64,000 nt of DNA from Pseudobutyrivibrio sp. (GTDB lineage Bacteria > Bacillota > Clostridia > Lachnospirales > Lachnospiraceae): NCBI RefSeq assembly GCF_017471675.1, contig NZ_JAFUSK010000022.1, forward strand, positions 17,666 through 81,665, in the 5' to 3' direction. Made by a program: the position numbers and the translations under genes. The notes beneath the pieces were generated by a model that did no database searches, was not told the DNA's origin, and was given only the letters and a program-made list of their open reading frames with translations. The first letter of the stretch is position 1; each line of letters begins with the position of its first letter. Below are positions 1,855-64,000 of this stretch, piece after piece.

Positions 1855-1893
1855 TATAGATATTATTTTATTTTCTTATAAAGGAGCAGTGTA

Positions 1894-2814: not shown

Positions 2815-2820
2815 AAATGA

Positions 2821-2915
2821 AGCCAATCTGTTACGGTAACAAGCATTATAATTCTCCGTTCGGAAACACTCCTCACTTGAGAATTACAATAGCTTGTTAC
2901 CTACAGATTGGCTTT
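2821..2915. repeat. Palindromic repeat, family A (GTAACAAG type), copy 1
   Basis: A long imperfect hairpin of about 95 bp: outer arms agccaatctg / cagattggct, then the conserved halves gttacggtaacaagcatta and aatagcttgttacctac, then gaattctc-type arms and a variable loop. Related elements are at 23304-23390, 48402-48483 and 51521-51655. It sits between convergent genes and may act as a bidirectional terminator. No coding capacity. Confidence 0.8.
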
Positions 2916-2921
2916 TATTTT

Positions 2922-3191
2922 TTACCATAATTTCTTCGGGCAACGGGATACCTTGGCTGTGGCGCGAAGCTCTACGTAGCAGCCACATGCCATGCATGTG
3001 CCTTCATTAAGCTTGTCGCAGCCTTTGCATACATTAAGACGGCTTTCATATTCTTCATCACTAACAATATCCTCAGCCTTCAATGCTGCCTTGTATTTTT
3101 CAATCATAGAGGTGTCTGCATCAATCATATCTCTCAGCAGACACCTGGTACATACTCTATTTTCGATCATAACTAAATACTGGTCTTCCAT
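2922..3191 (-). CDS. DUF6171-family small zinc-ribbon-like protein
   Basis: A protein of about 89 residues with paired cysteines: CTRC near the N-terminus, then CKGC, CMACGC and a final C near the C-terminus, matching the pattern of the DUF6171 family of small Firmicutes proteins (motifs RCLLRDM and CGCYVELRA). Eight cysteines suggest metal binding; function is unknown. It overlaps the 3' end of the upstream GH43 gene (stop at 3157), so it is probably translationally coupled. Starts at 3191 (used here), 3170 and 3203 are all possible, and none has a strong ribosome binding site. Confidence 0.7.
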   Translation of the reverse strand: MEDQYLVMIENRVCTRCLLRDMIDADTSMIEKYKAALKAEDIVSDEEYESRLNVCKGCDKLNEGTCMACGCYVELRATAKVSRCPKKLW

Positions 3192-4110: not shown

Positions 4111-4131
4111 TTTTTTATTTTTCTCTCCTCT

Positions 4132-5655
4132 TTAGTATTTAACTCCCCAAACTGATTCGTTACCACCTACAGCAGAAAAAGTCATCACATCTGTGCCTGC
4201 CTCATCTTTCATTTGACAAAATACACCGCTGAATTCTTTGTCTCCCATTTTAATATTCATGTAGTAGCTGCCATCCTTCATACTCCATGTACCTGACACT
4301 TCTTCTCCATCTACAGAACCATCCTTGTTTAGATAGAAGATTCTAGGATTAGCAATATCGCTTGAAATATCAGTGCCCTGGTTAATCACATAGTAGCGGC
4401 CAACTACATCATTCTTGCTGTATCCCTTATCAGAAACAGTCTCCCCCTGTGTCTGATATGGAAGCTCACATGGCCAGCCTTCCGCATTCATAAGCATTTG
4501 ATGAACACGTGGTGAATGATTTTCTCCACCATCATTAAACCTGGTGTGGTAGACTACGTAAACCTTGCCATCCTTATCAACAAAGGCTGAATTATGACCT
4601 GTTGCCATATATGCCTTATCAAGACTAGGAAGCTTGTAATTACCTGAAAGCTTAAGTCCAAAGTTTTCATGCATTGCACTCTTTTCTGGATAAGCTCCAT
4701 TCATATCTACATACTCTCCATCAACAGTCTTAGAGCGGAATACTCTCATCTGATATCCACCATTGCTGGTAAGACCACCGTATGATACGAACAGATAATA
4801 GTAATCTGTAGCTTCGTCATACATAATGTATGGTCCCTCAATAGAGATGTGACCACCGCCAAGCAGCTTCTTACCAAAGTATGCATCTACACCCTTTGCT
4901 TCATCAGCCTCAGGGTGAATAACAAGCCCAGTAGCTGGGTACAGCTCAAGAAGATATATACCACCTGACCAAGAACCGTAAACCATCCACATTCTGCCAT
5001 CCTTATCATAGAACACTGTTGGGTCGATGGCATTTGGGTAATCTTCGTAGTTATAAGCACCGCCCTTAATGTAATGCTTCTTGGCATAATCCTCATCTAC
5101 ATAATCAAGCACATCAGTTGCTTCTATATTTTTATTTGTAAAGCCTGAATAAATAAGTGCTCCCTGCCATTCAAATGGTCCCTCTGGGGATGTGCTGGTG
5201 CCAAAGCACAGGTTCGAAGCATTAAATGTACTGGTTGTGCAATAATACATATAATACAAACCTGTAGTTTCGTTGTAAATTACATCAGGTGCCCACACAT
5301 GGGTACCACCATCATCTGTTTTGATGATACTGTCCTTTGAGCCAGAATAAGCAAATGCCTTATCCTTCACATCATAAATCTGACCGTAAACTGGATTGGT
5401 CTTCATATATCCATCTGCAATACTCTCCCAATTAAGTAAATCAGTACTTTTTGCAGCTGTCATATGAGAGCCGTAAATATAATATGTTCCGTCAACTTCT
5501 AAAATGGATGGATCATGGACAGATACGCCCGAAGATACGTCACCTACTGCAATGCCGTCGTAGCTAACTGTAAAGTTTTTAGATTCTGAGCCCGCGCATG
5601 CTGTAAGACCTCCAACCATAGAAACTGCCAGAACACATGAAATTAATCTTTTCAT
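4132..5655 (-). CDS. Secreted GH43 lipoprotein, endo-arabinanase-like
   Basis: A 507-residue predicted extracellular hydrolase of arabinan side chains. The N-terminus is a lipoprotein signal (MKRLISCVLAVSMVGGLTAC, Cys20). The catalytic propeller carries Asp48 (VHDPSIL), Asp211 (IDPTVFYD) and Glu273 (IEGPYIMYD), the GH43 base, modulator and acid; HVWAPDVIYN and GHNSAFVD are further family blocks. After the propeller comes a ~100-residue beta domain like the C-terminal domain of Abn2-type endo-arabinanases. GAGGAGACGC precedes the ATG. Being surface anchored, it would produce oligosaccharides for the lipoprotein transporter at the left of the window. Endo activity is inferred from domain layout. 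Confidence 0.88.
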   Translation of the reverse strand: MKRLISCVLAVSMVGGLTACAGSESKNFTVSYDGIAVGDVSSGVSVHDPSILEVDGTYYIYGSHMTAAKSTDLLNWESIADGYMKTNPVYGQIYDVKDKAFAYSGSKDSIIKTDDGGTHVWAPDVIYNETTGLYYMYYCTTSTFNASNLCFGTSTSPEGPFEWQGALIYSGFTNKNIEATDVLDYVDEDYAKKHYIKGGAYNYEDYPNAIDPTVFYDKDGRMWMVYGSWSGGIYLLELYPATGLVIHPEADEAKGVDAYFGKKLLGGGHISIEGPYIMYDEATDYYYLFVSYGGLTSNGGYQMRVFRSKTVDGEYVDMNGAYPEKSAMHENFGLKLSGNYKLPSLDKAYMATGHNSAFVDKDGKVYVVYHTRFNDGGENHSPRVHQMLMNAEGWPCELPYQTQGETVSDKGYSKNDVVGRYYVINQGTDISSDIANPRIFYLNKDGSVDGEEVSGTWSMKDGSYYMNIKMGDKEFSGVFCQMKDEAGTDVMTFSAVGGNESVWGVKY

Positions 5656-5800
5656 GCGTCTCCTCCTTTGTCTTATTGCTTAGCATCAAGCCCCTATAAA
5701 AAATGCTTAGCTTTATTTCAAAGATAATATATCAAATTATATTTAGATTTTCAATAATTATTTTATATTTTTCTAAAACAATCATAGGTTATACTAAGAA

Positions 5801-5838
5801 AACCCCTCTACCGTAAGAATTTTTACGGTAAAGGGGTT
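5801..5838. terminator. Bidirectional-looking terminator
   Basis: Near-perfect 16-bp stem (aacccctctaccgtaa / ttacggtaaaggggtt) with T-runs available on both sides, 17 bp downstream of the CoA-transferase stop. It would end the minus-strand CoA-transferase transcript. Confidence 0.9.
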
Positions 5839-5855
5839 TTATCTTAATATACCAA

Positions 5856-7196
5856 TTATTTATTTGAACGTCTCCAAATGTGCATCTTCTCAGCCTCAGC
5901 AATAAGCTCATCTCTGAAATCAGGATGTGCAATACTGATAATTTTTTCTGCACGTTCCCAAGCTGAAAGGCCCTTAAGGCAAACCTTACCATATTCTGTT
6001 ACAAGGTAATGTGTGTTTGCACGAGTATCTGTAACAATAGAGCCCTCTGCAAGTGTAGGACGAATACGGCTCTTAACAGTACCATCCTTTGTAGTAAATG
6101 TAGATGAAAGACATACAAAGCTCTTACCACCATTAGAAAGATAAGCACCAAGTACGAAGTCAAGCTGTCCGCCTGCACCAGAAATGTGCTTTGTTCCAGC
6201 TGACTCAGCGTTAATCTGACCATATAAATCTACATCAACGGCGTTGTTGATAGAGATGAAGTTATCAAGTGCTGAAATCTGACGGATATCGTTAGTGTAA
6301 TCAACAGGTGCGCTCATAAGCTCTGGGTTCTCATCCATGTAATCGTACATCTTCTTTGTACCAGCACCGAAAGCGTATGTCTGACGGAATCTGTCGATAT
6401 TCTTCTTAGAACCGTTAATCTTACCAGCCTTTGCAATGTCTACGAATGCATCAACGTACATTTCTGTATGAACACCAAGATCCTTAAGGTCTGAATCAGC
6501 AATCATAGCGCCTACTGTGTTAGGCATACCGCCGATACCAAGCTGTAAGCATGCACCGTTTGGAATCTCCTCAACGATAAGCTTAGCTACTGCCTTATCT
6601 ACATCTGTAGGAGCACCGCCTGCGCCCATCTCTGAGATAGCTGGGTTGTTGCTTTCTACGATAGCATCAACCTTTGAAATGTGGATGCCTTCCTCAAAAC
6701 CGCCAAGGCAACGTGGCATGTTCTCGTTAACTTCTACGATGATGTGCTTAGACTTTTCAACTGCAGCCATAAGATGAGATGCGTTAGGACCGAAGTTAAA
6801 ATATCCATGATTATCCATTGTTGTTGTCTGGAGCATAAGAACATCGTTTGGCTCAATGTGCTCACGATAGTATCTAGGAAGCTCAGAGTATCTGATAGGT
6901 GCATAGTATGAGCAGCCTTTTGCAATAAGCTTACGCTCGATACCACCCATGTGCCATGAGTTCCAGCAGAAATGCTCACCTGCATCTTCTCTTTCGAAGA
7001 TAGCTGGAAGCTTCATTAAAATACCACCACGAACCTTAACATCACGTAACTCATCTGTACGTGCTGCAAGTGCCTTATCAAGTGCGTCTGGTGTACCTGT
7101 ACACCAACCGTAATCTACCCAATCTCCGCTTTTTACAACCTTAACAGCTTCTTCTGCTGTCGTAAGCTTGCGCTTATATTCAGCTTGAAAATCCAT
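5856..7196 (-). CDS. but: Butyryl-CoA:acetate CoA-transferase
   Basis: A 446-residue cytoplasmic class I CoA-transferase of the acetyl-CoA hydrolase/transferase family. It moves CoA from butyryl-CoA to acetate, releasing butyrate, the last step of butyrate formation in Roseburia/Butyrivibrio-type bacteria. Visible features: N-terminal half with [40 protein letters not shown] and GIGGMPNT; C-terminal half with [19 protein letters not shown], containing the Glu expected to form the glutamyl-CoA intermediate. Length matches the But subgroup (about 447). A GGAGG site precedes the ATG; a strong terminator follows, and the gene stands alone. 4-Hydroxybutyrate CoA-transferase is the main alternative name for close relatives. 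Confidence 0.9.
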
Positions 7197-7370
7197 AATA
7201 AACCTCCGCTCGTTAAAAATTTATCAATTAGATACATTTTACCACGATAGGAGGTTTACTGCAAATAAAAAAATATGTTGTTTAGATATGAAAAGACTTT
7301 TGTTTTTAATCTAAAAAACAAAATCTTTAAATTTCGTTCAAGAATCCCATAAATATGCTTTTCTATTTAA

Positions 7371-9200
7371 TTAAAATCCAAAGATATATTTTACAATCTC
7401 GCAAAAATGAGACTGTACATATTTAATAATTGTTGGAATATAGCACTTAATCTCATTCCAATGAGCACATACGTATGGAATTACCACATCATTGATTACC
7501 TTAACTGCATTATCAATAGCTTCCTTCTCCTGCTGCTCTTTTTGGCTCTTTTCATCCTCACCTGGCTTTGTATCATCAATAACAGGCTCATCCTTTGATG
7601 GTGTATCATCTCCCGAAATCACTGGTGTTTCTGGAGTTGTTGGCTCACCTGGATTTTCTGGAGTTTCTGGAGTTTCAGGATTTTCAGGCTTCTCTGGTGT
7701 CTGTGGTTCTTCTTCACCACCAAGTGTTTCTGGAGTAACAGAAAGAATAATATCTGCATAGTTCTCATTTGAGATAGTTACAGTATAGGCTGTCTCTGGA
7801 ATCAGCTCCTCTTCAACGTTAACCTTAACTACACCATTTTCTACTGTTACAGGTGCACTATCTACTACACTTACTGTAGTTCTGCCTTCCTTGTATGAAA
7901 GTGAAAGTGTAGCCTCACCAATCTCCTTATCAATACCTTCAACTGTAAGAAGCTTGTTATCATTTACATTGAAATATGTCTTAACGTTTGCTGTATCAAA
8001 AACAGGCTTAACATATACAGATTCATCAAAAACATAGCTGTATACATCGTCAGCTGTAAGATAATCTACAGAATTAATGTAGCCACCTTCAAATGATGCA
8101 CTTGCATTCATATCTGGCTCAAATGCGATTTCGTATGTTGAAACCCAGATTTCCTTTAAGTGTCTTACACCAAGAGAAATAGCATTACCGTTAGCATCAA
8201 CGCCTCTAAGGATAGCACCATGTACTGCATTATTTACAGGATATATATCATTGTCTCTTGTTTTTCTAAGATAATTTGTAGATGATTCATTAACCTCTAG
8301 CTGGTATGTACCATATCTTGTAAAGTACTTAAGTGCAGCTGTTGCATCCTGAACCACAATCTTCTTTCTAATTACTGCCTTACCAAAGCTTTCTCCATCA
8401 TATGGTAAATAATAAGATGGAATAACTGCCTGATTTTCATTTACTGCAACAGCAAGAATATTCTTGTAAGCATCCTTTACGCCTAAGCCTGCTGCATCTA
8501 AGATAGAAGCCTTAACATAAGCCTCCTTGCTAATAGCTACATTAGCACTCTTTAATCCATAGATATAATAACCTGATTCTGTTACCTCAGATGTATCTGT
8601 GTTTGCAAAAAGAGTATTCTTTCTAGTTGTTGCAGATGATACAGCATCGTACTCATCAGCTGATGTCTGGCCCTTGTAAAGCTGTGTATAAGAAGCCTTA
8701 GCTGCGCCATAGATATTTCCTGATAAATCAGCTTTTGTATAATAGTAGATATCAGTTTCGTCTACCTTAGTAAAGTCTGCAAAGGGAATCTCTGATTCTT
8801 CTGTTCCTTCCCCTATAACCACTACAGTAGCTTCATTGATATCATCTGTCTTACGGATAAAGTAATATGTCTCACCAATCACCTCTACTGATGTTGCTGT
8901 AACATTCTCTTCCTCAGCTTCTGGCTGTTCTTCCACAACAGCTGCTTCCTCAGTAGTTTCGTCTTTAGCCTCTGTGCTATCCTTGGCAGCTTCTGTCTCT
9001 TCTTCCTTTACCTCGGCCTCTACTTCTTCCTTTACCTCGGCCTCTTCCTTTACTTCCTCATTTGAAGTCTCTTCTACAGTCACATCTGTTTCTGCTACTA
9101 CACTAGTATTGTCCTCAGTAGTTTCAGCGGCAAAAACTGGAGTTTCAAGTGAAGTCACTGCAAGTCCAAGGATAAGTAGTTTCGCTACAAATCTTTTCAT
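7371..9200 (-). CDS. Secreted acidic protein with Pro/Glu/Thr linker, unknown function
   Basis: A 609-residue exported protein: signal peptide (MKRFVAKLLILGLAVTSLET..., cleavage after VFA), a ~90-residue Glu/Ala/Val-rich acidic stretch with direct EVKEE repeats, a globular region of ~370 residues containing DEYDAVSSATT, then a PETPE-type repetitive linker (~residues 510-555) and a C-terminal ~45-residue amphipathic, aromatic-rich tail with two cysteines. The DAVSSAT motif resembles exported FMN-binding or Tp47-like domains, but I cannot assign a family. There is no LPXTG; anchoring might involve the tail. A GGAGG site precedes the ATG. Likely surface exposed. Confidence 0.75.
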   Translation of the reverse strand: MKRFVAKLLILGLAVTSLETPVFAAETTEDNTSVVAETDVTVEETSNEEVKEEAEVKEEVEAEVKEEETEAAKDSTEAKDETTEEAAVVEEQPEAEEENVTATSVEVIGETYYFIRKTDDINEATVVVIGEGTEESEIPFADFTKVDETDIYYYTKADLSGNIYGAAKASYTQLYKGQTSADEYDAVSSATTRKNTLFANTDTSEVTESGYYIYGLKSANVAISKEAYVKASILDAAGLGVKDAYKNILAVAVNENQAVIPSYYLPYDGESFGKAVIRKKIVVQDATAALKYFTRYGTYQLEVNESSTNYLRKTRDNDIYPVNNAVHGAILRGVDANGNAISLGVRHLKEIWVSTYEIAFEPDMNASASFEGGYINSVDYLTADDVYSYVFDESVYVKPVFDTANVKTYFNVNDNKLLTVEGIDKEIGEATLSLSYKEGRTTVSVVDSAPVTVENGVVKVNVEEELIPETAYTVTISNENYADIILSVTPETLGGEEEPQTPEKPENPETPETPENPGEPTTPETPVISGDDTPSKDEPVIDDTKPGEDEKSQKEQQEKEAIDNAVKVINDVVIPYVCAHWNEIKCYIPTIIKYVQSHFCEIVKYIFGF

Positions 9201-9383
9201 AAATATCCTCCTGTTTTTATTAAGTTTTTAGATTTAAAACATATAATGGGATTAGCGTTAGTGCTTGCTAACAAGAACTATTAGACTATAACATATGTTA
9301 GCCTGCCCTAACAATAAAAATCTTGAATATTTACATGAAAAAAAATATCATATAATTAAAGATATTCATCAGGAGGTGTAGCT

Positions 9384-9839
9384 ATGGCTAAACAAGAAAT
9401 TGAAGTTGCTGGTGCACCAAAACAGGTTACCATTACCCCTTTTGAGCATCACACAAAATATCATGAAACAGATTTGCAGGGTGTTATTCACACATCTAAT
9501 TATCTTAATTGGATAGAAGATGCCCGAATGAATTTGATGGAGCAGATGGGTCTTTCATTTAAACAGATGTTAGACATGGAGATTAGTTCTCCAATGATTT
9601 CCCACTCCATAGAATACAGAAGTGAAGTTAAATTTGACGAAACTGTTGTTGTAGAAACAAAGCTTTTGTCCTATGATGGGCATGAAATGGAGGTTGCCTA
9701 TCGTATTTACGATAAAGCTACTGGAGAAGACAGGGCTATTGCCAAAACCAGCCATTGCTTTGTAGATAGAAGTGGTATACCGATTTCTATGAAGCGCGCT
9801 TATCCGGAGCTGGATACGAAGTTCTTTGAATTTAAATAA
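9384..9839 (+). CDS. Acyl-CoA thioesterase, 4HBT/YbgC-like hot-dog fold
   Basis: A 151-residue hot-dog protein that would hydrolyse an acyl-CoA thioester in the cytoplasm. The family signature is visible as YHETDLQGVIHTSNYLNWIE (the Asp equivalent of the YbgC/4HBT active site followed by the H-x-x-x-Y/N segment). An AGGAGGTG site precedes the start at 9384. It is monocistronic and followed by a palindromic repeat with terminator character. Substrate unknown. Confidence 0.85.
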   Translation: MAKQEIEVAGAPKQVTITPFEHHTKYHETDLQGVIHTSNYLNWIEDARMNLMEQMGLSFKQMLDMEISSPMISHSIEYRSEVKFDETVVVETKLLSYDGHEMEVAYRIYDKATGEDRAIAKTSHCFVDRSGIPISMKRAYPELDTKFFEFK

Positions 9840-9843
9840 AAAA

Positions 9844-9916
9844 TCGGATGAGGTGCTTTTTATACACACCTCATCCGGCCCTTGGCCACCTTCCCCTCAA
9901 GGGGAAGGCTTTTTTA
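9844..9916. repeat. Palindromic repeat, family B (CTCATCC/CCTTCCCC type), copy 1
   Basis: Contains ggatgaggtg...cacctcatcc as one stem and ccttcccctc/aaggggaagg as a second stem ending in a T-run (gcttttttat). The same modules recur at 24908-25019, 25737-25787, 36771-36829, 43197-43307 and 53344-53512. Here it separates convergent genes and probably terminates the thioesterase transcript. Confidence 0.8.
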
Positions 9917-10153
9917 TTGTTTCGCTCCTATTTCCATTAACAGGTTGATAAGCTCGATGTCCGATTCCTGAACACGAAGGTTTGTTTCAATCTTCTCTCC
10001 TTTAGGATCTGTAATAGCAATCTCGATAACTGAACCCGGTGTCATTGCCTTTCCCCTAGCTGCATTAAAAAATGGTAAAAGCTTAGGGTGATTTGAATTA
10101 AATTTTGCTGCTGCACTTCTTACTCTTAATAAGTCTGCTGGATTAAATGCCAT
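9914..10153 (-). CDS. Conserved small protein of unknown function
   Basis: A 79-residue soluble protein beginning MAFNPADLLRVRSAAAKFN and containing MTPGSVIEIAITDPKGEKIE, then a helical C-terminus. I do not recognise a family. The ATG is preceded by a GGAG-containing site and lies 15 bp downstream of the hybrid histidine kinase gene, so the two are probably cotranscribed. Its stop lies inside the edge of a family B repeat. Confidence 0.65.
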   Translation of the reverse strand: MAFNPADLLRVRSAAAKFNSNHPKLLPFFNAARGKAMTPGSVIEIAITDPKGEKIETNLRVQESDIELINLLMEIGAKQ

Positions 10154-10168
10154 AATTCTATTCTCCTA

Positions 10169-12505
10169 CTACAATATATATTTACGCAGTAGCTTACGAA
10201 GCTCCTCTTCCTTAATTGGCTTTTCAATATAATCATCAAAGCCTAAGCGCTCATACTCTTCCTTGGCGCCAACTACTGCATTAGCCGTTTGCATGATAAG
10301 AGGTGTATCTTTATTAGGATTCTCGTCTAAGGAATCTAATATGTTCTTAAGCTCTATACCATCCATACCTGGCATTAAATGATCAATAAATATCATATCA
10401 TATTTTGTACTTTTTATCTTCTCTATTGCTTCTGCTCCACTAATGGCAGTTTCTACAGCCACATCTGTATTGTTAAGCAAAACTGAAAATACTCTAAGAT
10501 TAATAGCAACATCATCTACTACAAGAATCTTGCCTAATATATCAAAGGTTTCGTGTCTGTCAGCCACACGTCTATCTCCGTTTGGTCCCATAGAGAATAT
10601 GCCACATGGTTCAATAGAGCGTATTTCCTGAGGAAGTACAACTGTAAATGTGGTGCCCTTGCCCACTTCTGATTCAACAGATATAGAGCCATCCATCAAA
10701 TCTATCAGCTGCTTTGTGATAGTAAGGCCTAATCCGGTTCCTTCTATCTTTTTGTGTTGGAACTCTCCTACTCTTCTAAATGAATCAAAAAGATATGGGA
10801 TATTTTCTTTCTCAACACCAATTCCAGTGTCACTAACCTTTACTATTAAAAGAAGACGGCCTTCAAATATTTTGCCATCGATGCCTAGACTAATTCGTCC
10901 CTCTGGTGTATATTTTACAGCGTTTGTAAGAAGATTGGTGATAACCTGAATAATTCTTTCCTTATCACCCCTTAATACAGAAGGAAGCACATCACTCATA
11001 TCTACCTCAAAGGCTAATCTGCTGGCCTTTGCTCTTGGGCGAACCAAAGCATAGCATTCTCTTACCATATCAATCAAATCATAATCTTCTTCCTCAATCT
11101 CTATCTTTCCTGCATTTACTTTTGCAAGGTCTAACACCTCGTTTACTATGCTAAGAAGGTAATTGCCTGCGCCATTAACATCTCTGGCGTAATCTAAGAT
11201 ATTCTCTTCCCTGCTTTCCCTAAGAATCATTTTGTTCATTCCAAGGATTGCGTTGATTGGAGTACGCATTTCGTGAGACATTCTTGTGAGGAATGCTGTG
11301 CTGGCCTCTTGCGCCTGTACTGCGGCGTACATATCTCGTTCCATGCTGCGGACATTACCAAGGGATCTTATATAAGACATTACTATCATAAACAATAAGC
11401 CCAAAAGAATTATCACTCTATCCATAGATGTTGGATGATTGTGATAAGAAACAATCTGTACAACACCTGCAATCATGGCTCCTAATATTCCAATCATTTC
11501 AGGTAATAGCCTCTTGATATAGCCCTGAATAAAATCGCACACACAGGTAACTATAAAAATAACTATAGAAAGAAGTATTCCCATAAAGGCAAATGGTAAA
11601 ACGCCACTTAAATCAATCTTGTTAAAAAACTGAAGTATGATTCCAAGATACCCTACAAATATAGTAAGAACCTCGGTAACCATGTAGAATATGCGGTATC
11701 TCCCCTCCTGCAATCTGTCAAAATACATAGACATAACGAAAGGCAACATAATCAGACTAATATAAGTAATATAGGAAATAAGGGAAAAATTAGGTGCAAT
11801 AAACTGTCTTGTTGTGGATTCTGAAAGTGCCCAAAGTCCTGCACACATTACACCCCATCCAGCAAAGAAAAGAGGCTGGGTCTTATTGTAAGAAAGCTTT
11901 ACTCCCACACCTATTACAAAGGCTATGAAGCCAAGCATTATAAGAAGCCCCGATAAAAACATGGAAAGCTTTTCTCTCTCAAACAAATCCAGTGTGATTC
12001 CAAGCTGAGTACCAATCGTTATCTCATCAAGGACGCCTGAATAATTGTTGTTGCCTACAAATTCGATTCTAAGAAGCTTCCCCTCATCAACCTTTTTAAC
12101 TGGAACAAACATCAATGCCCCTGGGCTATTGTTACCAAATTTGCGGGTATACTTAGTAGAATACTCATATATAAGCTTATCGTTAATATAGGCATATACA
12201 TCCTGCTTTTCAGAATTAAAGGATACATACAATCGGTCAGCAAAAACACCAGTAATCTCCTTTTGAATTACCAGCCTATTACCTGTTGACATTTCGTATT
12301 CTCCAGGAACTGTAATATCCTTATAACTACCATCGGAATCTAACCGCTGCCATCCTTCACTATAGTTTTCTAAAGAAAAATCACTGTACGTGCGTTCATC
12401 AGGCCAGAAATGCTCGCCATATATCATAAGTCCTATGACAAAGACATATAAAACAACACTACAGGTAATTATTATCTGAAAAACAAATCTACTAGTCTTT
12501 TCCAT
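10169..12505 (-). CDS. Hybrid sensor histidine kinase with receiver domain
   Basis: A 778-residue membrane sensor. Order: N-terminal TM helix, extracytoplasmic beta domain (~residues 30-175, 7TMR-DISM-like), seven predicted TM segments (~180-390), HisKA with the H-box FLTRMSHEMRTPINAIL (~His 410), HATPase_c with N-box ITNLLTNAVKYT, G1 VSDTGIGV and G2 GTGLGLTITKQL, and a C-terminal receiver domain (~655-778) with the phospho-Asp in MIFIDHLMPGMDG. No DNA-binding output is fused or adjacent, so it probably signals by phosphorelay to an unlinked partner or through the TPR proteins encoded divergently. The sensed signal is unknown; 7TMR-DISM sensors often bind carbohydrates. Confidence 0.9.
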   Translation of the reverse strand: MEKTSRFVFQIIITCSVVLYVFVIGLMIYGEHFWPDERTYSDFSLENYSEGWQRLDSDGSYKDITVPGEYEMSTGNRLVIQKEITGVFADRLYVSFNSEKQDVYAYINDKLIYEYSTKYTRKFGNNSPGALMFVPVKKVDEGKLLRIEFVGNNNYSGVLDEITIGTQLGITLDLFEREKLSMFLSGLLIMLGFIAFVIGVGVKLSYNKTQPLFFAGWGVMCAGLWALSESTTRQFIAPNFSLISYITYISLIMLPFVMSMYFDRLQEGRYRIFYMVTEVLTIFVGYLGIILQFFNKIDLSGVLPFAFMGILLSIVIFIVTCVCDFIQGYIKRLLPEMIGILGAMIAGVVQIVSYHNHPTSMDRVIILLGLLFMIVMSYIRSLGNVRSMERDMYAAVQAQEASTAFLTRMSHEMRTPINAILGMNKMILRESREENILDYARDVNGAGNYLLSIVNEVLDLAKVNAGKIEIEEEDYDLIDMVRECYALVRPRAKASRLAFEVDMSDVLPSVLRGDKERIIQVITNLLTNAVKYTPEGRISLGIDGKIFEGRLLLIVKVSDTGIGVEKENIPYLFDSFRRVGEFQHKKIEGTGLGLTITKQLIDLMDGSISVESEVGKGTTFTVVLPQEIRSIEPCGIFSMGPNGDRRVADRHETFDILGKILVVDDVAINLRVFSVLLNNTDVAVETAISGAEAIEKIKSTKYDMIFIDHLMPGMDGIELKNILDSLDENPNKDTPLIMQTANAVVGAKEEYERLGFDDYIEKPIKEEELRKLLRKYIL

Positions 12506-12682
12506 TTTAGTCCCTCAATACACATAAAAATTGAAATTCTTAAGATTTATTTTAATCTTTAATCCTATTCAAAACAACAAGTTACGAAAAATGTCACAGA
12601 ATTTTAAACATTATATACACTTTTAAATGATATACTGATTTTAAATGAGCAGATTCTTATTAAAATCTCGTAGGAGGTGACT

Positions 12683-13630
12683 ATGGCCAGTTCAGAACAG
12701 ATTGCAAGAGAATATTATGATAAAGGTATGGAGTTAATCCACTCAACTAATGTGGAGCTTGCTATTGATAATCTAAATATGGCTCTTTCTATTTATGAAG
12801 AATTAGATGATGCTATTTCTTATATTTGGACAATGCGAGGCCTTGCTATTGCATACGGTATTCTAGGATATGACAGTAAGGTGCTGCAAAAATGTCTTAT
12901 TGCGCTTAACTATGCTGATAAAAAAGGAATACAAGGAGCAAAGCATCTATTCTATACAACCATCTGCGATAGATATATGATTCTTGGTGATTATGACAGT
13001 GCCATAAACTACGGTAAAATGGCGCTTCAGGATTTAGAGGATCATGGCACCGATTTTCCTAATGAGCCTCACTCTTATATGGTGGCCTGCATGAATTTAG
13101 CATATTCATATTTGCACATTCGCAGATACCCGGACGCAGAAAACTATCTGAAAAGAGCCAAGGAAATCGCAATGAAAAACGACATGCACCACCACGACCT
13201 TAGTATTTCTGTACTTAGTGCTAATTTACATTTTCATATTGGCGATGAGCAATATGTCTACGACCATATTGATGAATTAGTTACCTTTATTAAGAACTCA
13301 AGGATTACCATTCAGGATTATATTCAGGATTTACGTCTTCTAATTGAAACCTTCTGCGGAATGAAGGAATTCGCTAAAGCTGAAGCTGTTGCCACAAGCC
13401 TTGAATCATCTGCTACCATCTCTAATGATGTACACATGAAGCTTGCTGCTGCTCAGCTTTACATGATGGTGTACAAGCTAAGTGGTGAAACAGAGAAATA
13501 TCATAATTCCTGCGTTAAGTTTGCTGAGGGAACCATTGCCGTAAAAGAAGCAGAGGCTGCAGAACATTTGCTGGAGATGGACACTGCAATCGCATTGTCT
13601 ATTGCCGATACTCCTTTGGATTTATTATAA
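12683..13630 (+). CDS. TPR-repeat protein
   Basis: A 315-residue all-helical cytoplasmic protein with tetratricopeptide-like repeats: YYDKGMELIHSTNVELAIDN, YDSAINYGKMALQDL and YPDAENYLKRAKEIA are successive units. The start at 12683 is preferred over an in-frame GTG at 12677 because TAGGAGGTGACT gives ideal Shine-Dalgarno spacing to this ATG. It is divergent from the hybrid kinase and 25 bp upstream of a membrane-anchored protein gene. Likely a protein-interaction scaffold; relatives occur near GGDEF or kinase genes in this family, but a role here is inference. Confidence 0.75.
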   Translation: MASSEQIAREYYDKGMELIHSTNVELAIDNLNMALSIYEELDDAISYIWTMRGLAIAYGILGYDSKVLQKCLIALNYADKKGIQGAKHLFYTTICDRYMILGDYDSAINYGKMALQDLEDHGTDFPNEPHSYMVACMNLAYSYLHIRRYPDAENYLKRAKEIAMKNDMHHHDLSISVLSANLHFHIGDEQYVYDHIDELVTFIKNSRITIQDYIQDLRLLIETFCGMKEFAKAEAVATSLESSATISNDVHMKLAAAQLYMMVYKLSGETEKYHNSCVKFAEGTIAVKEAEAAEHLLEMDTAIALSIADTPLDLL

Positions 13631-13655
13631 TCTCTGTTATGGAGAGTAATGAATC

Positions 13656-14840
13656 ATGAAGAAAAAATTAGGAATTGCATTAATTATTATTTTTACTGTA
13701 GCTATTTTCATTAAAGCTGAGTTGGATTTCAATCCCTCTGTTCGAGTATTGGCCTCTGTAATTAATTTTTCAGAGTCCACCCTTAAAAGCTCAGATTATC
13801 TGGCTTACAATATTGACCTGAAGGATTTGTTTAGAAATTATACAAATGCAGACATTAGCTACACCGGTAGCGCTTATATTAAAAAGGTTAAAGGCTTCCC
13901 TTATTCTATCAGCGGTAGCATTAAGGGTGAACGTTCTTCAGAACAAAAAAAATTCTCATGTAAAGCTGATTTGGATGTGCTGGTATTAAACGTTGGAAAA
14001 ATGGATGTTTATGCTGAGGATGACACTATATATCTGGTGGCACCTATGCTTGGTAACATATCCTACGGATTTGATACTAATGAGAATCTATTCTTAAAAG
14101 CACCTAATCTTAACAATGATATCAACAGGGAATGGTTCCACAATAATAAAAAGAATATTTTCAATTTCATTCGCAAAATCGATATTAAAAAAACTGATAA
14201 AACTTATACAGACGAAGATGGAACCAAAGCCACTGAGTTTGCCATTACCATCCCTAAGGGCGAAGGCGATTTCATTTGGGAATTGCTTGGTATGGATGCC
14301 CCTGACCATGATATTAAATCCTACATTTATCTGGACAAGTTCAATCACACAAGAAAGCTTGTATTTGACCTTTCTTACAAAAGAAAGGGCGCTTACATTT
14401 CCATCTATGGCAAAAACCTAAGTACCTTAGAGCTTTTCAGCCCTCTTCCAGATAATGAACAGGTTATAGCAACCATAAAAAGAGATGGCAATACAACCTA
14501 CACTAATGCTTACATTAATAATATCACCTATACCACAAATGCTGGTGACAAGTTCACTATAGATTCCGGAGCTCTTTTAAACTATGTTGATGATGGAATT
14601 AAGATGGAATTGACAGATTTGGTGGTGGCCAAGAATAGCACTTCTTTAGCAGAAGGCTATGTAAAGGGCAAAATCAAACAGGTTGATAATATGGGGGATG
14701 TGTTTAAAAATGCAGGTGCCGATTTGTCCCATGTTGATATTATTGATTGGGATGAAATAAAAAATGACACCGCCTCATTTATAGACGATGTCATTTCAAA
14801 AGCTCGTGATAATGTAGATATATTTGATATATTCGACTAA
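13656..14840 (+). CDS. Membrane-anchored extracytoplasmic protein, unknown function
   Basis: A 394-residue protein with an N-terminal TM/signal anchor (KKKLGIALIIIFTVAIFIK) and a long beta-rich extracellular part built of alternating strands (e.g. DISYTGSAYIKKVKGF, YLDKFNHTRKLVFDLSY). No cysteine-rich or catalytic motif is evident. It follows the TPR gene by 25 bp, suggesting cotranscription. Fold resembles large lipoprotein-localisation-type beta sheets only in a general way; I do not assign it. Confidence 0.65.
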   Translation: MKKKLGIALIIIFTVAIFIKAELDFNPSVRVLASVINFSESTLKSSDYLAYNIDLKDLFRNYTNADISYTGSAYIKKVKGFPYSISGSIKGERSSEQKKFSCKADLDVLVLNVGKMDVYAEDDTIYLVAPMLGNISYGFDTNENLFLKAPNLNNDINREWFHNNKKNIFNFIRKIDIKKTDKTYTDEDGTKATEFAITIPKGEGDFIWELLGMDAPDHDIKSYIYLDKFNHTRKLVFDLSYKRKGAYISIYGKNLSTLELFSPLPDNEQVIATIKRDGNTTYTNAYINNITYTTNAGDKFTIDSGALLNYVDDGIKMELTDLVVAKNSTSLAEGYVKGKIKQVDNMGDVFKNAGADLSHVDIIDWDEIKNDTASFIDDVISKARDNVDIFDIFD

Positions 14841-14842
14841 TC

Positions 14843-15286
14843 TTAGCTTTCCTCTGGGAAGCTTCCTAAAATTTTATATAGCAATTCGTATAGCTTAGCC
14901 GATTCATCAGGCGATAGCTGAACGCATTTGCCCATTTTAGCAGGTATTTCACATGCCTGCTTTTTTAATTCCAAACCTTCGTCAGTAAGAGTAATAATAA
15001 GATTTCTCTCATCATCCTTAGAACGGCTTCGTTTAACATATCCCTTCTGCTCTAGCTTTTTAAGTACTGGAGTAAGTGTACCTGAATCAAGGAACAGCTT
15101 ATCACCAAGAGCCTTAACTGTAATCTCCTTCTCCTCCCACACTACCATCATGGTAATGTACTGAGTGTATGTAAGGTCGATTGGATCAAGGTATGGCTTG
15201 TACCTTTTCACTATCTCCTTAGAGCATGCATAAAGTGGAAAGCATAGCTGATTTGAAATTTTCAAGCAATCAAATTTATCGCCCAT
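14843..15286 (-). CDS. ohrR: OhrR-type MarR family peroxide-sensing repressor
   Basis: A 147-residue winged-helix repressor closely matching one-cysteine OhrR: NQLCFPLYACSKEIVKRYKP places the reactive Cys at position 15, and LTYTQYITMMVVWE, DSGTLTPVLKKLEQKGYVKR and DERNLIITLTDEG are typical. In OhrR, oxidation of this Cys by organic hydroperoxide releases DNA. It is the last gene of a thioredoxin/reductase operon, 19 bp after trx, so it is probably autoregulated through the AATTGTA inverted repeats in the operon promoter (16584-16610). There is no ohr peroxiredoxin gene beside it, which is unusual. Confidence 0.85.
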   Translation of the reverse strand: MGDKFDCLKISNQLCFPLYACSKEIVKRYKPYLDPIDLTYTQYITMMVVWEEKEITVKALGDKLFLDSGTLTPVLKKLEQKGYVKRSRSKDDERNLIITLTDEGLELKKQACEIPAKMGKCVQLSPDESAKLYELLYKILGSFPEES

Positions 15287-15305
15287 TGTAATTCACCTCT
15301 ATTAA

Positions 15306-15617
15306 TTATAGATTTTTAGACACAAAATCTGTAAGTGCGTCCTTTGGAACAAAGCCTACGTTCATGTCTACCTTTTCGCCATCCTTTAAGACAACGATAG
15401 CTGGAATATTCATTATACCATATTCTCTAGCTAAATCTGGATTATCATCAGTATCTACGCTATAGAAATTAGCCTTATATGCAAGCTCCTCTGATACTTC
15501 TTCGAGAACTGGAGCAAGCATCTTACATGGGCCACACCATGTAGCATTAAAATCTAAAACTGAAATTCCTGACTTATCAAGTGTCTTAAATTCATCCTGA
15601 TTAATTTTCTTTACCAT
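15306..15617 (-). CDS. trxA: Thioredoxin
   Basis: A 103-residue thioredoxin with WCGPCK active site (Cys28/Cys31), DFNATWCGPCK and the cis-Pro loop NIPAIVVLKDGE. It reduces protein disulfides in the cytoplasm and here would take electrons from the flavoprotein encoded 30 bp upstream. GGAG site before ATG. Operon order is reductase-trx-ohrR. Confidence 0.93.
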   Translation of the reverse strand: MVKKINQDEFKTLDKSGISVLDFNATWCGPCKMLAPVLEEVSEELAYKANFYSVDTDDNPDLAREYGIMNIPAIVVLKDGEKVDMNVGFVPKDALTDFVSKNL

Positions 15618-15647
15618 AGTATATCTCCTTTCAAATTAAATCAACAA

Positions 15648-16520
15648 TTACTCTGTAGCTTTCTTTAGTTCTGTTAAATATGAAACAGCTGAAAGAGCTG
15701 CAACATTTCCCTCTCCTGCTGCCTTGATGTACTGATAAGGTGTACCAGTAATATCACCACAAGCAAACAAGCCCTTGATGTTAGTAGCCATCTGTCTATC
15801 TACTGCTACATGATTGCCATCCATTGTAAGACCAGGTACAAGCTGTGATGGAGCTATCTGCTGTCTAAGAATAAAAATACCATCTGCCTTATATGTATCC
15901 TTATCTGTTTCAAGAGATGCAACACCATCCTTATAATCTATAGATTTAGGCTTAACATCACAGGTTACTTCTATATTACCACCAAGTGAACCTGAATATT
16001 CATACTGAGGTAAATAATAAACCTTATCTGCGCGCTCTGCCAAGAACTCAGCCTCTTCCTCGTCCTCTGCACCATATGCAACGATTATAGCTGTCTTACC
16101 CTTATAAAGCGCTGCATCACATGTAGCACAATAGCTAACGCCACGTCCTAAGAATTCCATCTCGCCTGGGAATGGCTTCATAGTAGTCATTCCTGCTGCT
16201 ACGATAACTGAGCTGGCCTCATAGTCACCACCGTGGCATTGAATAGCAAAATACTTACCCATGGAATAAACAGCATTAACCTTGTCCTCAGTAATCTCTA
16301 CACCCATTGATGTGGCATGGTCAAGAAATGCCTTAGCCATATCCTCACCAGAAACATTAGGAAGCCCCAGGTAGTTCTGAATTGTGTGAGCCTTAGCTAC
16401 CTTATCAGATGAGCCCTTTCCTCCAATAAGTAATACTGATTTATTTCTAACCTTAGCAGTAATAGCTGCCTCTAAGCCTGCTGGACCAGTACCAATAACT
16501 GCAATATCATATCTTTCCAT
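15648..16520 (-). CDS. Thioredoxin reductase-like flavoprotein, possibly pyridine-nucleotide independent
   Basis: A 290-residue low-molecular-weight flavoprotein: FAD-binding GTGPAG (10-15), redox CATC (Cys131/Cys134) in SYCATCDAALYK, and C-terminal GLFACGDITGTPYQYIKAAGEG. The segment that binds NADPH in classical TrxB (GGGDSA and HRR) is replaced by IVAYGAEDEEEAEFLAERA and VYYLPQYEYSG, so the dinucleotide Gly motif and the phosphate-binding Arg pair are absent. That pattern is known from ferredoxin-dependent flavin thioredoxin reductases of clostridia. It probably reduces the adjacent thioredoxin with reduced ferredoxin; donor identity is inference. A strong promoter with an OhrR-like operator lies upstream. 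Confidence 0.85.
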   Translation of the reverse strand: MERYDIAVIGTGPAGLEAAITAKVRNKSVLLIGGKGSSDKVAKAHTIQNYLGLPNVSGEDMAKAFLDHATSMGVEITEDKVNAVYSMGKYFAIQCHGGDYEASSVIVAAGMTTMKPFPGEMEFLGRGVSYCATCDAALYKGKTAIIVAYGAEDEEEAEFLAERADKVYYLPQYEYSGSLGGNIEVTCDVKPKSIDYKDGVASLETDKDTYKADGIFILRQQIAPSQLVPGLTMDGNHVAVDRQMATNIKGLFACGDITGTPYQYIKAAGEGNVAALSAVSYLTELKKATE

Positions 16521-60415: not shown

Positions 60416-61132
60416 TTACACCGCTGTTCGCTTCTCCGCATGTCCATATGTGCAATAATGCTTGTAATACTCAGGCAGATTGTTTCCGAATGCCTTCTGC
60501 AAATCCGCGTATCTTGCCTTGTAGGTTACAACGTTGAATGTATCAATCGCCTGTCTGCCTTCCTTCATTCCGTAAGCTTTGAAATGTTCAAAGAGCTGTG
60601 CTGCATTCGTTCCATAGGTCGCTTTAAGGTCTGCGTATCTGTTGGCGTAATATGTGGCGTTAAACACTAAACTCATGTCTACGCCTTCATATATGTAGCT
60701 TGCTTTGACAGCTGTATTAAAGAGCTTCTTTTCAGCAGCTCTTCTCTTAGTCAATCCAGCAAGTACTTTTCCTTTTTGGGTGTTGTAGCTTCCAAACTTC
60801 GCAGATATCTGAGCGATAGTTCTTGTGCCATTTGCTGTGAGTCCATCAATCGAGCCTACGTTGTATGCGAAGCTCACCAGTGCATCGTACTGATTCTGAT
60901 TGAAATTGTATTTAGCCTGGTACTTGTTGACCTTGGCTTCGAACTTTGCCAAATCGTTGATGAAGTATGCGTCAGCCTGTGCTTGAGTTATCTTCATTCC
61001 CTTCTTTACATCTGATCCGTAATGCCCCCAGCCGATTGTGTAATACTTTTCTGATGAGGTTGCCTTGTACGCTGTCAGTTTGCAGTTCTCGTACGATTTA
61101 ATCAGGTTGTGACCTGCCGTTGATGTTTTCAT
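60416..61132 (-). CDS. Phage endolysin, GH24 lysozyme with C-terminal repeats
   Basis: A 238-residue peptidoglycan hydrolase. GH24 domain (~1-140): catalytic Glu15 in IKSYENCKLTAY, and YYTIGWGHYG, DALVSFAYNVG. The C-terminal part holds two ~40-residue repeats (FNATYYANRYADLKATYG; FNVVTYKARYADLQKAFG), probably wall binding. The ATG at 61132 has ideal spacing from GGAGG; the ATG at 61141 does not. It overlaps the holin gene by 35 bp, a classic lysis cassette. Confidence 0.92.
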   Translation of the reverse strand: MKTSTAGHNLIKSYENCKLTAYKATSSEKYYTIGWGHYGSDVKKGMKITQAQADAYFINDLAKFEAKVNKYQAKYNFNQNQYDALVSFAYNVGSIDGLTANGTRTIAQISAKFGSYNTQKGKVLAGLTKRRAAEKKLFNTAVKASYIYEGVDMSLVFNATYYANRYADLKATYGTNAAQLFEHFKAYGMKEGRQAIDTFNVVTYKARYADLQKAFGNNLPEYYKHYCTYGHAEKRTAV

Positions 61133-61622
61133 TGTCTTCATCCTCCTTCTTATCTGCTCCTGCTTTCTCGTTTAATATTGCAATAGCCTTTTGGACTGCT
61201 GGTGGGAGTGGTATTCCCATCAATCCAACATTTTCTGTTATGGATATGATTTCATTGAGAGCAAAACCAATTATACAAAGGTCTCTCAGATATTTAATGC
61301 CTAATAGAATATCTAGTCTAAACATAGCTGCCACAATCATCCATTCGACGAATTTCTTGCATAATCCTTTGAAACCGATGTTGCTCGACAGTCCTCCGCT
61401 TTCAGTCTTCTTCGACTGCTTGAATACTGCAGCAACAATCCATCCTGTCACATAATCAATTACCATCAAAACCATTAATGTCTGCATGCCCTCTGTCCAT
61501 CCTCCGAATAGGTATGTGATGATACTGCCAAGTGCGCCTGCTGCGGCGCATAGATTAATCTTAGGTGTGTTTAGTGCTGCCACCCACAGCTTGAGATTAG
61601 CTATTAATGTTCTCATAAACAT
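61098..61622 (-). CDS. Phage holin (phage_holin_4/toxin secretion family)
   Basis: A 174-residue membrane protein that forms lesions releasing the endolysin. Hydrophobic segments INLCAAAGALGSIITYLFGG, LMVLMVIDYVTGWIVAAVF and the region WMIVAAMFRLDILLG / DLCIIGFALNEIISI; the motif DYVTGW and a charged C-terminus are typical of this family. GGAGGAGGACA lies before ATG. Its end overlaps the endolysin start. Confidence 0.88.
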   Translation of the reverse strand: MFMRTLIANLKLWVAALNTPKINLCAAAGALGSIITYLFGGWTEGMQTLMVLMVIDYVTGWIVAAVFKQSKKTESGGLSSNIGFKGLCKKFVEWMIVAAMFRLDILLGIKYLRDLCIIGFALNEIISITENVGLMGIPLPPAVQKAIAILNEKAGADKKEDEDNENINGRSQPD

Positions 61623-62155: not shown

Positions 62156-62464
62156 TCAACCTCCAATCGTTGCGATCATCTCGTACATTTCGGCCAAAGC
62201 TTCCATGATTGCTTCGTTGTTTGCAACCTGTGCTTTGAATGCTTCGGACTCAAGCTGTTCCATCTCTGAAATGTATTGCTCGTACTCATCAACTGTCAGC
62301 TGCGCCTCTTGGTATGTGTAGCCTTCAATGTTGCCACTTTCCATCTCTATGGTAGTTGGCTTGATGTCTCGTCTTAGATACACTGTATCCTGGCTTGATG
62401 TCACATCTACTTCAAGCGGAACTTCTGTCTGTGTACCTGTCACGGTTCTCCATGTAATTTTCAC
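62156..62464 (-). CDS. Phage tail-end conserved protein
   Basis: A 102-residue protein starting at a GTG (62464) with AGGAGGCGATTAGGC upstream: KITWRTVTGTQTEVPLEVDV ... TVYLRRDIKPTTIE ... then a helical C-terminus. Proteins of this style lie just behind tail fibre or receptor-binding genes in gut Firmicutes phages. It overlaps the 3' end of the reverse transcriptase gene by 53 bp, so the retroelement is embedded in the tail operon. Confidence 0.7.
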   Translation of the reverse strand: MKITWRTVTGTQTEVPLEVDVTSSQDTVYLRRDIKPTTIEMESGNIEGYTYQEAQLTVDEYEQYISEMEQLESEAFKAQVANNEAIMEALAEMYEMIATIGG

Positions 62465-63542
62465 GCCTAATCGCCTCCTTCTTTCTTCTAACAGATATGA
62501 ATTTTTTCAGCTTTCCTATATTCACAACCGGTCTGATGTATTCTTTGTAGACCATATATGAATCGGTGTTCTTGATGTATCCCATGTAGCTAACCATGCC
62601 GCACGCTCCTTGGATGGTCACGTTCTTGGCCACTCTCCTTACTTTCCTTGTGATTCGATAGTAAATAGAACGTCTTAAGATGGTTCTGTTTCTCTTGAAC
62701 CTAAAACCCATGAAATCAAGGTCTCTTCCGTGGAGCTTTCCATCCTTACGCGATACATATTCGAAGCGGTATACTTGCCAGTTCTCTTTGACTCTCAAAT
62801 GGAACCTTTCTCTCAAGTATCTTTCTATCTCCTTGTGTATCCTGTGGAGCTCTTTCTTATTAGGTCCAAAGATTACTATGTCATCCATGTATCTAACATA
62901 GTATTTAGCCTTAAGCTCCTCCTTAACGTAGTGGTCTAGCTCGGTCAACATGAAGTTCGCAAACCATTGTGATGTGTAGTTACCAAGCGGTAGACCTCTT
63001 TCACATCCGTCAATGATTTCAAATAGTAGATTGAGCATCTTCCAATCTCTAATCTTTCTCTGGAGCATGCCTTTTAGGATATCCTTATCTACACTTTCAT
63101 AGAAATGTTTGATATCCATCTTGAAGATATATTTTGTATTTTTAGCATCAGAACGAATCCATTTTTCAATTCTCTTTCTGCCGTAATGTGAGCCTCGTCC
63201 TGGAATAGATCCGCAGCTCATCTCATACATAGGCTTCATCAGAATGGGTTCCAACACTTGTATCACCGCGTGGTGTATTATCTGGTCGTATTTGAAATGA
63301 GGCTTTCTGATTCGCCTTACTTTCAAGTGCGTCCCTTCGTTGATTACACATACTCTGTCGATATGCGCTGAATATTCTTCATTTATCAACATCTTTTGAA
63401 CTCTTTCAACATGATAGTCCATGTTGTTGAGCACTCTTTTCACATCTCTTCGCTCCCGTTTGCGTTTTGCTGCCTCTTCTATCGCTTGCCTTATATTATC
63501 CTCTGCAACCACTTGCTCGAATAAATGCTTATATGTTTTCAT
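62412..63542 (-). CDS. Diversity-generating retroelement reverse transcriptase
   Basis: A 376-residue RT that copies the template repeat RNA with adenine-specific errors. Motif 3 FKMDIKHFYESVD (Asp143), motif 4 LPLGNYTSQWFAN (186-195; the LGxxxSQ form that marks DGR enzymes instead of QGxxxSP), motif 5 YVRYMDDIVIFG (Asp220/221), motif 7 LDFMGFRF, and a C-terminal GYIKNTDSYMVYK segment that resembles thumb endings of this group. No maturase or endonuclease domain. AGGTGAAT site before ATG. Template repeat lies 150 bp upstream, variable repeat 380 bp upstream. No Avd gene lies between them. Confidence 0.93.
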   Translation of the reverse strand: MKTYKHLFEQVVAEDNIRQAIEEAAKRKRERRDVKRVLNNMDYHVERVQKMLINEEYSAHIDRVCVINEGTHLKVRRIRKPHFKYDQIIHHAVIQVLEPILMKPMYEMSCGSIPGRGSHYGRKRIEKWIRSDAKNTKYIFKMDIKHFYESVDKDILKGMLQRKIRDWKMLNLLFEIIDGCERGLPLGNYTSQWFANFMLTELDHYVKEELKAKYYVRYMDDIVIFGPNKKELHRIHKEIERYLRERFHLRVKENWQVYRFEYVSRKDGKLHGRDLDFMGFRFKRNRTILRRSIYYRITRKVRRVAKNVTIQGACGMVSYMGYIKNTDSYMVYKEYIRPVVNIGKLKKFISVRRKKEAIRRENYMENRDRYTDRSSA

Positions 63543-63691
63543 GACTTATTCACCTAGAAGGCGTTCATTATGTCCGTATTACTAGCCCTCTCCTTCATCG
63601 GCTGAATTTCCACTCGGCAATAGCCTAGCCGTATTGCAACGGCCTGCGGTGTAAATGACCTTGAGATGCATTGGTTATTATTCCAAAAGCA

Positions 63692-63791
63692 GAAAGTAAA
63701 GGCCAGCCCGTAGTTCCAATTCGAGTTCGACAGCGCATTGTTCAGATTCACAGCACAGCCACAAAGAAGACCATTGTTGCCATTGCCACCG
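63692..63791 (-). repeat. DGR template repeat (TR)
   Basis: On the minus strand this segment is the adenine-rich partner of the variable repeat at 63921-64000; alignment (63692-63771 to 63921-64000) has 66 identities in 80. The upper limit is uncertain because the variable repeat leaves the window. Read in the frame of the target it encodes GGNGNNGLLCGCAVNLNNAL and SNSNWNYGLAFTF, full of AAY Asn codons, the usual design of a template repeat. The 149 nt between TR and the RT start match the spacer RNA that DGRs need for cDNA priming. Confidence 0.92.
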
Positions 63792-63865
63792 AAGCGCGCA
63801 AAGCACGATGGGACACGGTCAGTCGCATCTCAAAGCCCCTAGTATATTTAATTATGGAGATACGC

Positions 63866-63881
63866 GGGGGAGAAATCCCCC
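63866..63881. promoter_or_regulatory. GC-rich hairpin downstream of the variable repeat
   Basis: Perfect 6-bp stem ggggga / tccccc around a GAAA tetraloop (plus strand), 19 bp beyond the target stop codon and 39 bp beyond the end of the repeat homology. DGRs have a small hairpin/cruciform with a four-base loop at this place that increases target recognition; it could also be the terminator of the target gene. Confidence 0.65.
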
Positions 63882-63899
63882 GGTCCCCCTTTAGCGTTG

Positions 63900-64000
63900 C
63901 TATGCAACGGAAGGTTGGTCGCAAGTCAAGGCGAGCCCGAAGGTCCAAGCCGAGAAAGACAGCGCAGCGTTCAGAGGCACAGCACAGCCACAAAGAAGAC
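63900..64000 (-). CDS. DGR target (receptor-binding/tail) protein, C-terminal end only
   Basis: The last 32 codons of a gene that continues beyond the window; the stop is TAG at 63902..63900. In the template frame the product ends LLCGCAVPLNAALSFSAW then TFGLALTCDQPSVA. Compared with the template, Asn codons have become Pro, Ala, Phe, Ala and Thr, one Asn is kept, and Tyr became Phe. C-terminal variable repeats of this type sit in C-type-lectin-like folds of phage tail or cell-surface ligand-binding proteins. Placement upstream of tail-end and lysis genes suggests a tail receptor-binding protein. Confidence 0.85.
   Translation of the reverse strand, partial: LLCGCAVPLNAALSFSAWTFGLALTCDQPSVA
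63921..64000 (-). repeat. DGR variable repeat (VR), partial
   Basis: Aligned with the template, 14 of 80 bases differ: ten at template adenines (minus strand), of 14 available, and four elsewhere. Three of these four lie within the 13 bases at the 3' end, where the non-mutated IMH/IMH* differences of DGRs are found. The repeat continues past the window edge. Confidence 0.92.

Follow-up and report, generated by a model that had tools for sequence, protein, structure and literature searches.

A phage-borne diversity-generating retroelement in Pseudobutyrivibrio with an RT-4-like spacer RNA and no detected Avd

Diversity-generating retroelements (DGRs) transfer sequence from a template repeat (TR) to a variable repeat (VR) with changes at template adenines, the model being that of Bordetella phage BPP-1. 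There, a hairpin is required for efficient homing, and the phages compared in the same account have stems of 7 to 10 bp with GRNA loops (PMC3240598). The outcome can be seen in Bacteroides uniformis phages that are 99.83% identical, in which almost all differences lie in the VR (PMC8143477). Avd is carried by the majority of DGRs rather than by all of them; Avd-less phage DGRs have already been published, so that the kind itself is known. Closer to the locus described here are the Butyrivibrio phages Arawn and Idris, for whose reverse transcriptase (RT) a role in prophage immunity has been proposed; the main text of that paper contains 0 occurrences of ‘retroelement’ and ‘DGR’ (PMC7372960).

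We analysed a stretch of 64 000 nucleotides from a Pseudobutyrivibrio contig (hereafter the window), in which the minus strand between 62412 and 64000 is a DGR; it comprises an RT, a TR and, at its upstream end, the terminal part of a target gene that carries the VR (table 1). An earlier note, made from the sequence alone, had described this as a DGR in a prophage tail/lysis region, and the description stands: lysis genes adjoin the cassette, the RT clusters with DGR RTs and the TR/VR pair has an adenine bias. Read on the minus strand towards lower coordinates, the order is target end with VR, hairpin, TR, 151-nt spacer, RT, acidic ORF, small ORFs, holin and lysozyme. The VR and the target gene are incomplete because the contig ends at base 64000; searching the genome with the 401-base contig end gave chance-level matches only, and a search of the same genome with the Idris target protein did not find the rest of the gene. 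Housekeeping-type genes on the same contig, named by eye from reading frames, suggest a prophage state. The other phage end was not found, and no portal gene was found in the genome, so the rest of the phage is missing; the 64-kb window has 0 tRNAs that might serve as an att site.

Table 1. Features of the cassette and its surroundings in the window.
Feature	Position	Strand	Basis
Reverse transcriptase of the DGR, 376 aa with a basic C-terminal tail; motifs LGNYTSQ and YMDD	62412..63542	-	profiles, motifs, tree
TR–RT spacer, covarying structured RNA; RT-4-like core 63545-63653	63543..63693	-	alignment, Rfam
TR, about 112 nt, 20 adenines	63694..63805	-	repeat pair; 5′ edge by homology to relatives
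VR, 3′ 78 nt only, 5′ part beyond contig end	63923..64000	-	repeat alignment
Target gene 3′ end, 32 residues ending GLALTCDQPSVA, stop at 63900-63902	63900..64000	-	C-terminus resembling relatives
Presumed target-site hairpin CGTTGC-ATA-GCAACG, starting 14 nt past the VR and covering the stop codon	63895..63909	-	
Second GC hairpin CGGGGGA-TTTC-TCCCCCG	63865..63882	-	stem invariant in 13 aligned rows, loop varies
102-aa acidic ORF, overlaps RT end by 53 nt; not Avd-like	62156..62464	-	similar position in relatives
Phage holin	61098..61622	-	profile matches
Phage lysozyme (endolysin)	60416..61141	-	profile matches

The sole direct repeat family reported in 63300-64000 is a 78-nt pair (63694-63771 and 63923-64000, spacing 229 nt). 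Within this alignment the VR departs from the template at 10 of 14 adenines and at 3 of 64 other bases (one-sided Fisher p = 1.9e-7), so that mismatches are concentrated at template adenines instead of being spread evenly over all bases. The earlier count of 10 of 14 adenines against 4 of 66 other bases in 80 is also correct, the fourth mismatch appearing when two bases beyond the 78 nt are read. The layout first proposed was borne out as well: between the near end of the TR and the RT start downstream there are 151 nt (150 bp had been given), the VR closes an upstream reading frame whose C-terminus, GLALTCDQPSVA, is like those of relatives’ targets, and the six codons hit at adenines all specify Asn or Tyr in the template (N>P, N>A, N>F, N>A, N>T and Y>F).

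Related loci came from an RT search that returned 14 viral loci and two genome contigs (L023 equals L015 in length and in where the match lies); among host-near genomes, a relative is encoded in 4 of 145, own genome included (E up to 1e-30). A TR/VR pair was found by script in 11 of the 17 relatives’ loci examined and in the window, with Arawn added later, while none was found in L010, L015, L016, L017, L021 and L022, where contigs end near or inside the cassette. When the 11 relatives with distinct VRs are pooled, changes affect 160 of 257 adenines of the templates and 4 of 942 of the remaining bases. Adenine mismatches were unweighted in the repeat search used for the window and this pool, which excludes L026 (its VR is that of L035); L011, L012, L013, L025 and L035 have a nearly identical TR and are therefore independent as VRs, not as lineages. 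Searches with a degenerate pattern for other alleles of the window VR gave 0 matches in the viral_contigs set and matched only the own genome among 29 genomes of the genus.

Bases other than adenine mismatch more often in the window (3/64) than in the relatives (4/942; p = 0.007), so this copy may not have homed recently. Together with the presence of the phage as a fragment only, this would suit a prophage whose DGR no longer works, with TR and VR recording an old homing event and now drifting apart. We consider this unlikely, as against it the RT frame, its motifs, the TR, the spacer RNA and the hairpin are all intact, and two of the three mismatches have a parallel in the relatives: base 74 of 78 is the same site where their TR and VR differ (presumably IMH and IMH*), and base 44 (G>T) is one where their TRs themselves have G or T. 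Base 68, six bases before the IMH/IMH* site, is alone in having none.

The ends of the contigs were also considered. Of the 14 viral contigs, five break off in the 500 nt that precede the RT, against 1.19 expected (P = 0.004 for uniform ends), a count in which the 500-nt zone was picked after the ends had been seen and two of the five contigs come from one metagenome. The window contig likewise ends in this zone, at a point where TR and VR share 23 identical bases. Such breaks fit a VR that is mixed in the population; the repeat structure alone could also cause them. As a separate observation, one template adenine, placed 72 nt ahead of the repeat end, has become T in the VRs of nine of nine loci by column count (L011, L012, L013, L014, L019, L020, L024, L025 and L035), turning a His codon into Leu. 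Leaving aside the last six bases of the repeat, no other variable adenine behaves in this way, and selection on the residue is likely.

The RT of the Butyrivibrio phages Idris, Closwp03 and Arawn is 66.5% identical to that of the window. Between Idris (L025) and Arawn (L035) there are 14 differing sites at locus positions 1000-15999, 13 of them inside the 111-nt VR (14492-14602). All 13 VR differences fall at template adenines and at codon positions 1 and 2, and the TRs are identical; VR variants confined to template adenines, suggested earlier as something to seek in related strains, do exist there. Nine differences precede position 1000 and about a thousand follow position 16000, so the two genomes are not near-identical throughout. 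Adenine mutagenesis is seen as this VR difference between the two relatives. In the literature searched, the Idris/Arawn VR was not found described as an example of a DGR. Closwp03 (L026; chicken swab, South Africa) equals Arawn throughout the compared stretch, VR included, with the exception of 141 differences in the last bin at the alignment end, where the stretches are of unequal length; such identity is surprising in an independent isolate whose DGR is active.

The VR ends in [CT]TGACTT in 13 of 13 rows and the TR differs there in all 13 (two of the rows share one and the same TR and VR), and these distinct 3′ ends fit IMH in the VR and IMH* in the TR. A perfect stem of 5 or 6 bp over the stop codon follows 14 to 28 nt after the VR in 12 of 12 loci, counted as the best stem within 40 nt and without a shuffled control; the 12 loci have four different stem sequences. 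In the window lineage the loops are ATA, GTA or GTAA, not GRNA, and the stems are shorter than the published 7 to 10 bp.

The window holds only the last 32 residues of the target, and its assignment draws on relatives. A match of 240 bits between the Idris target and a PHROG ‘tail protein’ family agrees with the tail setting originally claimed, and the target is predicted to be a tail protein, which might bind a host receptor. Its C-terminus, GLALTCDQPSVA, resembles those of relatives such as GLALTCEQPLAA and GVALTCEQPSVA (11 relatives’ target frames). The target homologue of Faecalibacterium phage FP_Epona, annotated as a BPP-1-like major tropism determinant, has 26% identity to the L024 target. 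By analogy with other DGRs, a C-type lectin (or Ig-like) fold would be expected; Pfam gave no family for the Idris target or four further targets, and PDB sequences nothing better than E 0.4.

RTs of DGRs are recognized by the motifs [LI]GxxxSQ and YMDD, and LGNYTSQ and YMDD, reported from the outset, are both present in the intact 376-aa frame. Profile matches were to RVT_1 (56.2 bits) and phrog_1423 (361 bits). The best solved match was 8ub7_A (E 3e-25), which we take to be the BPP-1 bRT complex, with group II RTs next, from 2.4e-16 upwards. A tree of 29 rows places the window RT in its family (99/97), within a larger set of 20 rows (support 96/89) that holds the RTs of BPP-1, VP58.5, ANMV-1 and Epona, along with those of LBR48 and a crAss phage; four rows labelled beforehand as known DGRs are not a clade, because the window family falls among them. 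Outside this set are six group II RTs, L045 and L053 (retron-like by eye), while L047, on a long branch, joins beside it; a long-branch warning applies to L045, L047 and L053. The tree omits near-duplicates (L010, L011, L015, L021, L038, L039, L041, L042, L051 and L052), the short L054 and L055, and L044, L046, L048, L049 and L050, which lack a usable frame; the RTs of L012, L016, L022, L026 and L035 are absent too. Since the RT groups with known DGR RTs, the grouping with retrons or group II introns that would have spoken against a DGR is not seen.

This bears on the published proposal for the Arawn/Idris relatives (PMC7372960), under which the RT would be a phage-exclusion or immunity enzyme and the repeat incidental. 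DRT and retron models do match the RT, and so do 75 PADLOC families at E up to 0.1, a search without cut-offs (headed by ‘RT’ with 102.8 bits and followed by Drt3a and RT_UG models). The NCBIfam matches are nevertheless far under their cut-offs (best DRT, Drt3a, 80.9 against 200; retron St85, 61.8 against 235), and a retron or DRT was rejected as a candidate. With the TR/VR adenine bias in 12 loci, the Idris/Arawn VR difference and the grouping with DGR RTs also against it, we regard an immunity function as highly improbable. More improbable still is a group II intron or retron RT beside repeats made by ordinary duplication and drift: the best NCBIfam match is indeed a group II model, but at 95.2 bits against a cut-off of 300, the motif is LGNYTSQ (xGxxxSQ) and not the QGxxxSP of group II rows, the six group II RTs lie across a 100/100 branch, and the mismatches are concentrated at template adenines.

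The spacer between TR and RT was compared across the DGR loci. Fifteen spacers aligned into six helices, and in the 14 distinct rows 96.6% of cells pair. Double changes occur in 10 of 23 pairs, and the covariation score is 0.339 against 0.158 for shuffled alignments and no more than 0.119 with slid partners. A weak control is the count of further pair types (18 against 16.0 shuffled, with 77 of 500 shuffles reaching 18). The alignment and Rfam scores indicate that the spacer is a covarying RNA and a divergent relative of Rfam RT-4 (RF03025), which it matches at 55.2 bits (E 6.7e-9), below the gathering cut-off of 73.5; the score for RT-18 is 34.8 bits (cut-off 41.3). Spacers of six close relatives score 46.0 to 54.0 bits against RT-4, also below the cut-off (8 of 9 chosen loci were scored, L024 being left out).

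An RNA model of this spacer, R1, was run on 31 sources and matched family members, with weak matches in L030, Epona, an Apilactobacillus plasmid and LBR48 (E 2.6e-5 to 0.036). At E up to 1 there was no match in BPP-1, VP58.5, ANMV-1, cr52_1, L031 and L032, nor at L001, L037, L047 and L053, loci with other RTs. When 397 genomes of the family were searched at E up to 0.001, using filters by which weak matches are missed, R1 matched in 9, one being the own genome. The eight new loci all have the R1 match between a TR/VR pair and an RT frame, with 10 to 18 changed adenines of 23 to 27 and 0 to 4 other bases changed; the repeat search at these loci penalised adenine mismatches less, so these numbers, as a measure of adenine bias, are themselves not free of bias. 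SQ and YMDD are present in seven of the eight RTs. At one locus, L077 (genome G428), the TR/VR pair is good, yet the RT reads SP and NMDD instead.

The RT-4 cut-off is passed by Epona, L078, L079, L080 and L081, with L074, L075, L076 and L077 below it, and LBR48 passes the RT-18 cut-off, suggesting that RT-4 and RT-18 may both be DGR spacer RNAs. Matches to one or other family lie at or near the start of DGR-type RTs at L057, L074-L081, L056, L060 and L030. A link of RT-4 or RT-18 to DGR loci was not found described in the literature covered, which did not include the families’ own source paper. As a tentative and somewhat doubtful extension, RT-4 and RT-18 might be the cDNA-priming cores of template RNAs in a large Avd-independent DGR lineage of Bacillota phages, where the RNA and a basic RT tail would replace Avd, so that Avd would be dispensable in an ordinary active DGR.

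With the bAvd model (PF22296), which matched the BPP-1 positive control, there was no match in the own genome, Idris, Closwp03 or Arawn, in LBR48, Epona, ANMV-1, the Apilactobacillus plasmid, cr52_1, the L018 record (possibly a fragment) or the L024 genome, or in seven of the eight new R1 genomes. Matches per set numbered 1 of 6, 2 of 8 and 2 of 9 genomes or records, BPP-1 being one in all three; the others were VP58.5 and G407, where the match is about 880 kb from the DGR. Absence of Avd here rests on one model and is not proof; ANMV-1 is drawn with a putative Avd in its published description (PMC4372165) and is without a PF22296 match, so the model may miss divergent Avd. The small ORF after the RT was considered as an Avd stand-in and rejected: it is acidic, with a pI of 4.1 to 5.7 in 18 rows of Bacillota phages or prophages (the survey gave none for L075 and did not include L077). 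The ORF of ANMV-1 has a pI of 9.1; for cr52_1 the sequence in the row belongs to the RT itself. In the 18 rows the acidic ORF overlaps or abuts the RT end.

Overall, the locus is very probably a phage-borne DGR of a Bacillota-phage lineage without detected Avd, which rewrites the end of a predicted tail protein at template adenines. The TR and the spacer that follows would be transcribed together, the spacer folding into an RT-4-like RNA recognized by the RT, and TR cDNA would be started from the spacer, as we infer from BPP-1. The RT would misread template adenines, and the cDNA would replace the VR at the 3′ end of the upstream tail-protein gene, where the stop-codon hairpin may mark the target site. 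In this way a tail protein predicted to bind the receptor would come to vary at one of its ends.

As a DGR this element is ordinary in kind; of note are the apparent lack of Avd, the RT-4-like RNA and the cultured relatives. The lineage is a clear DGR lineage, and with Arawn and Idris in culture a change in the VR could be observed at the bench; its identification argues against the published guess on the Arawn/Idris RT. Two Rfam families that carry no more than the names RT-4 and RT-18 RNA in the search output are tied to DGR loci. If Avd is truly absent, the roles of the RNA and of Avd in adenine mutagenesis would be separable here.

Among described systems, the Arawnvirus phages Arawn, Idris and Closwp03 share with the window the layout of target, VR, hairpins, TR and RT, a spacer RNA matched by R1, and lysis genes downstream. 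They differ in that their annotated endolysins are of other types, whereas the window contig has housekeeping-type genes and a VR cut at the contig end. Bordetella phage BPP-1 (mtd-avd-TR-brt) likewise has a tail gene with VR, a hairpin just after the VR, TR, spacer and RT, then lysis genes. Unlike the window lineage, where none was found, it has avd between mtd and TR; its hairpin loop is GAAA rather than ATA, GTA or GTAA, its spacer is Rfam Phage_DGR where that of the window is RT-4-like, and its RT has 328 aa against 376. Lactobacillus phage LBR48 and the Apilactobacillus apisilvae plasmid have homologous RTs (42.0% and 46.0% identical, respectively) and, as in the window, no bAvd match; unlike the window, both have an RT-18 rather than an RT-4 RNA just upstream of the RT. 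In FP_Epona, as in the window, there is no bAvd match and an acidic ORF overlaps the RT end, the order being target, RT and acidic ORF, then XkdX, holin and endolysin; in contrast to the window, its RT is 37.8% identical and its spacer matches RT-4 at 124.4 bits, above the cut-off.
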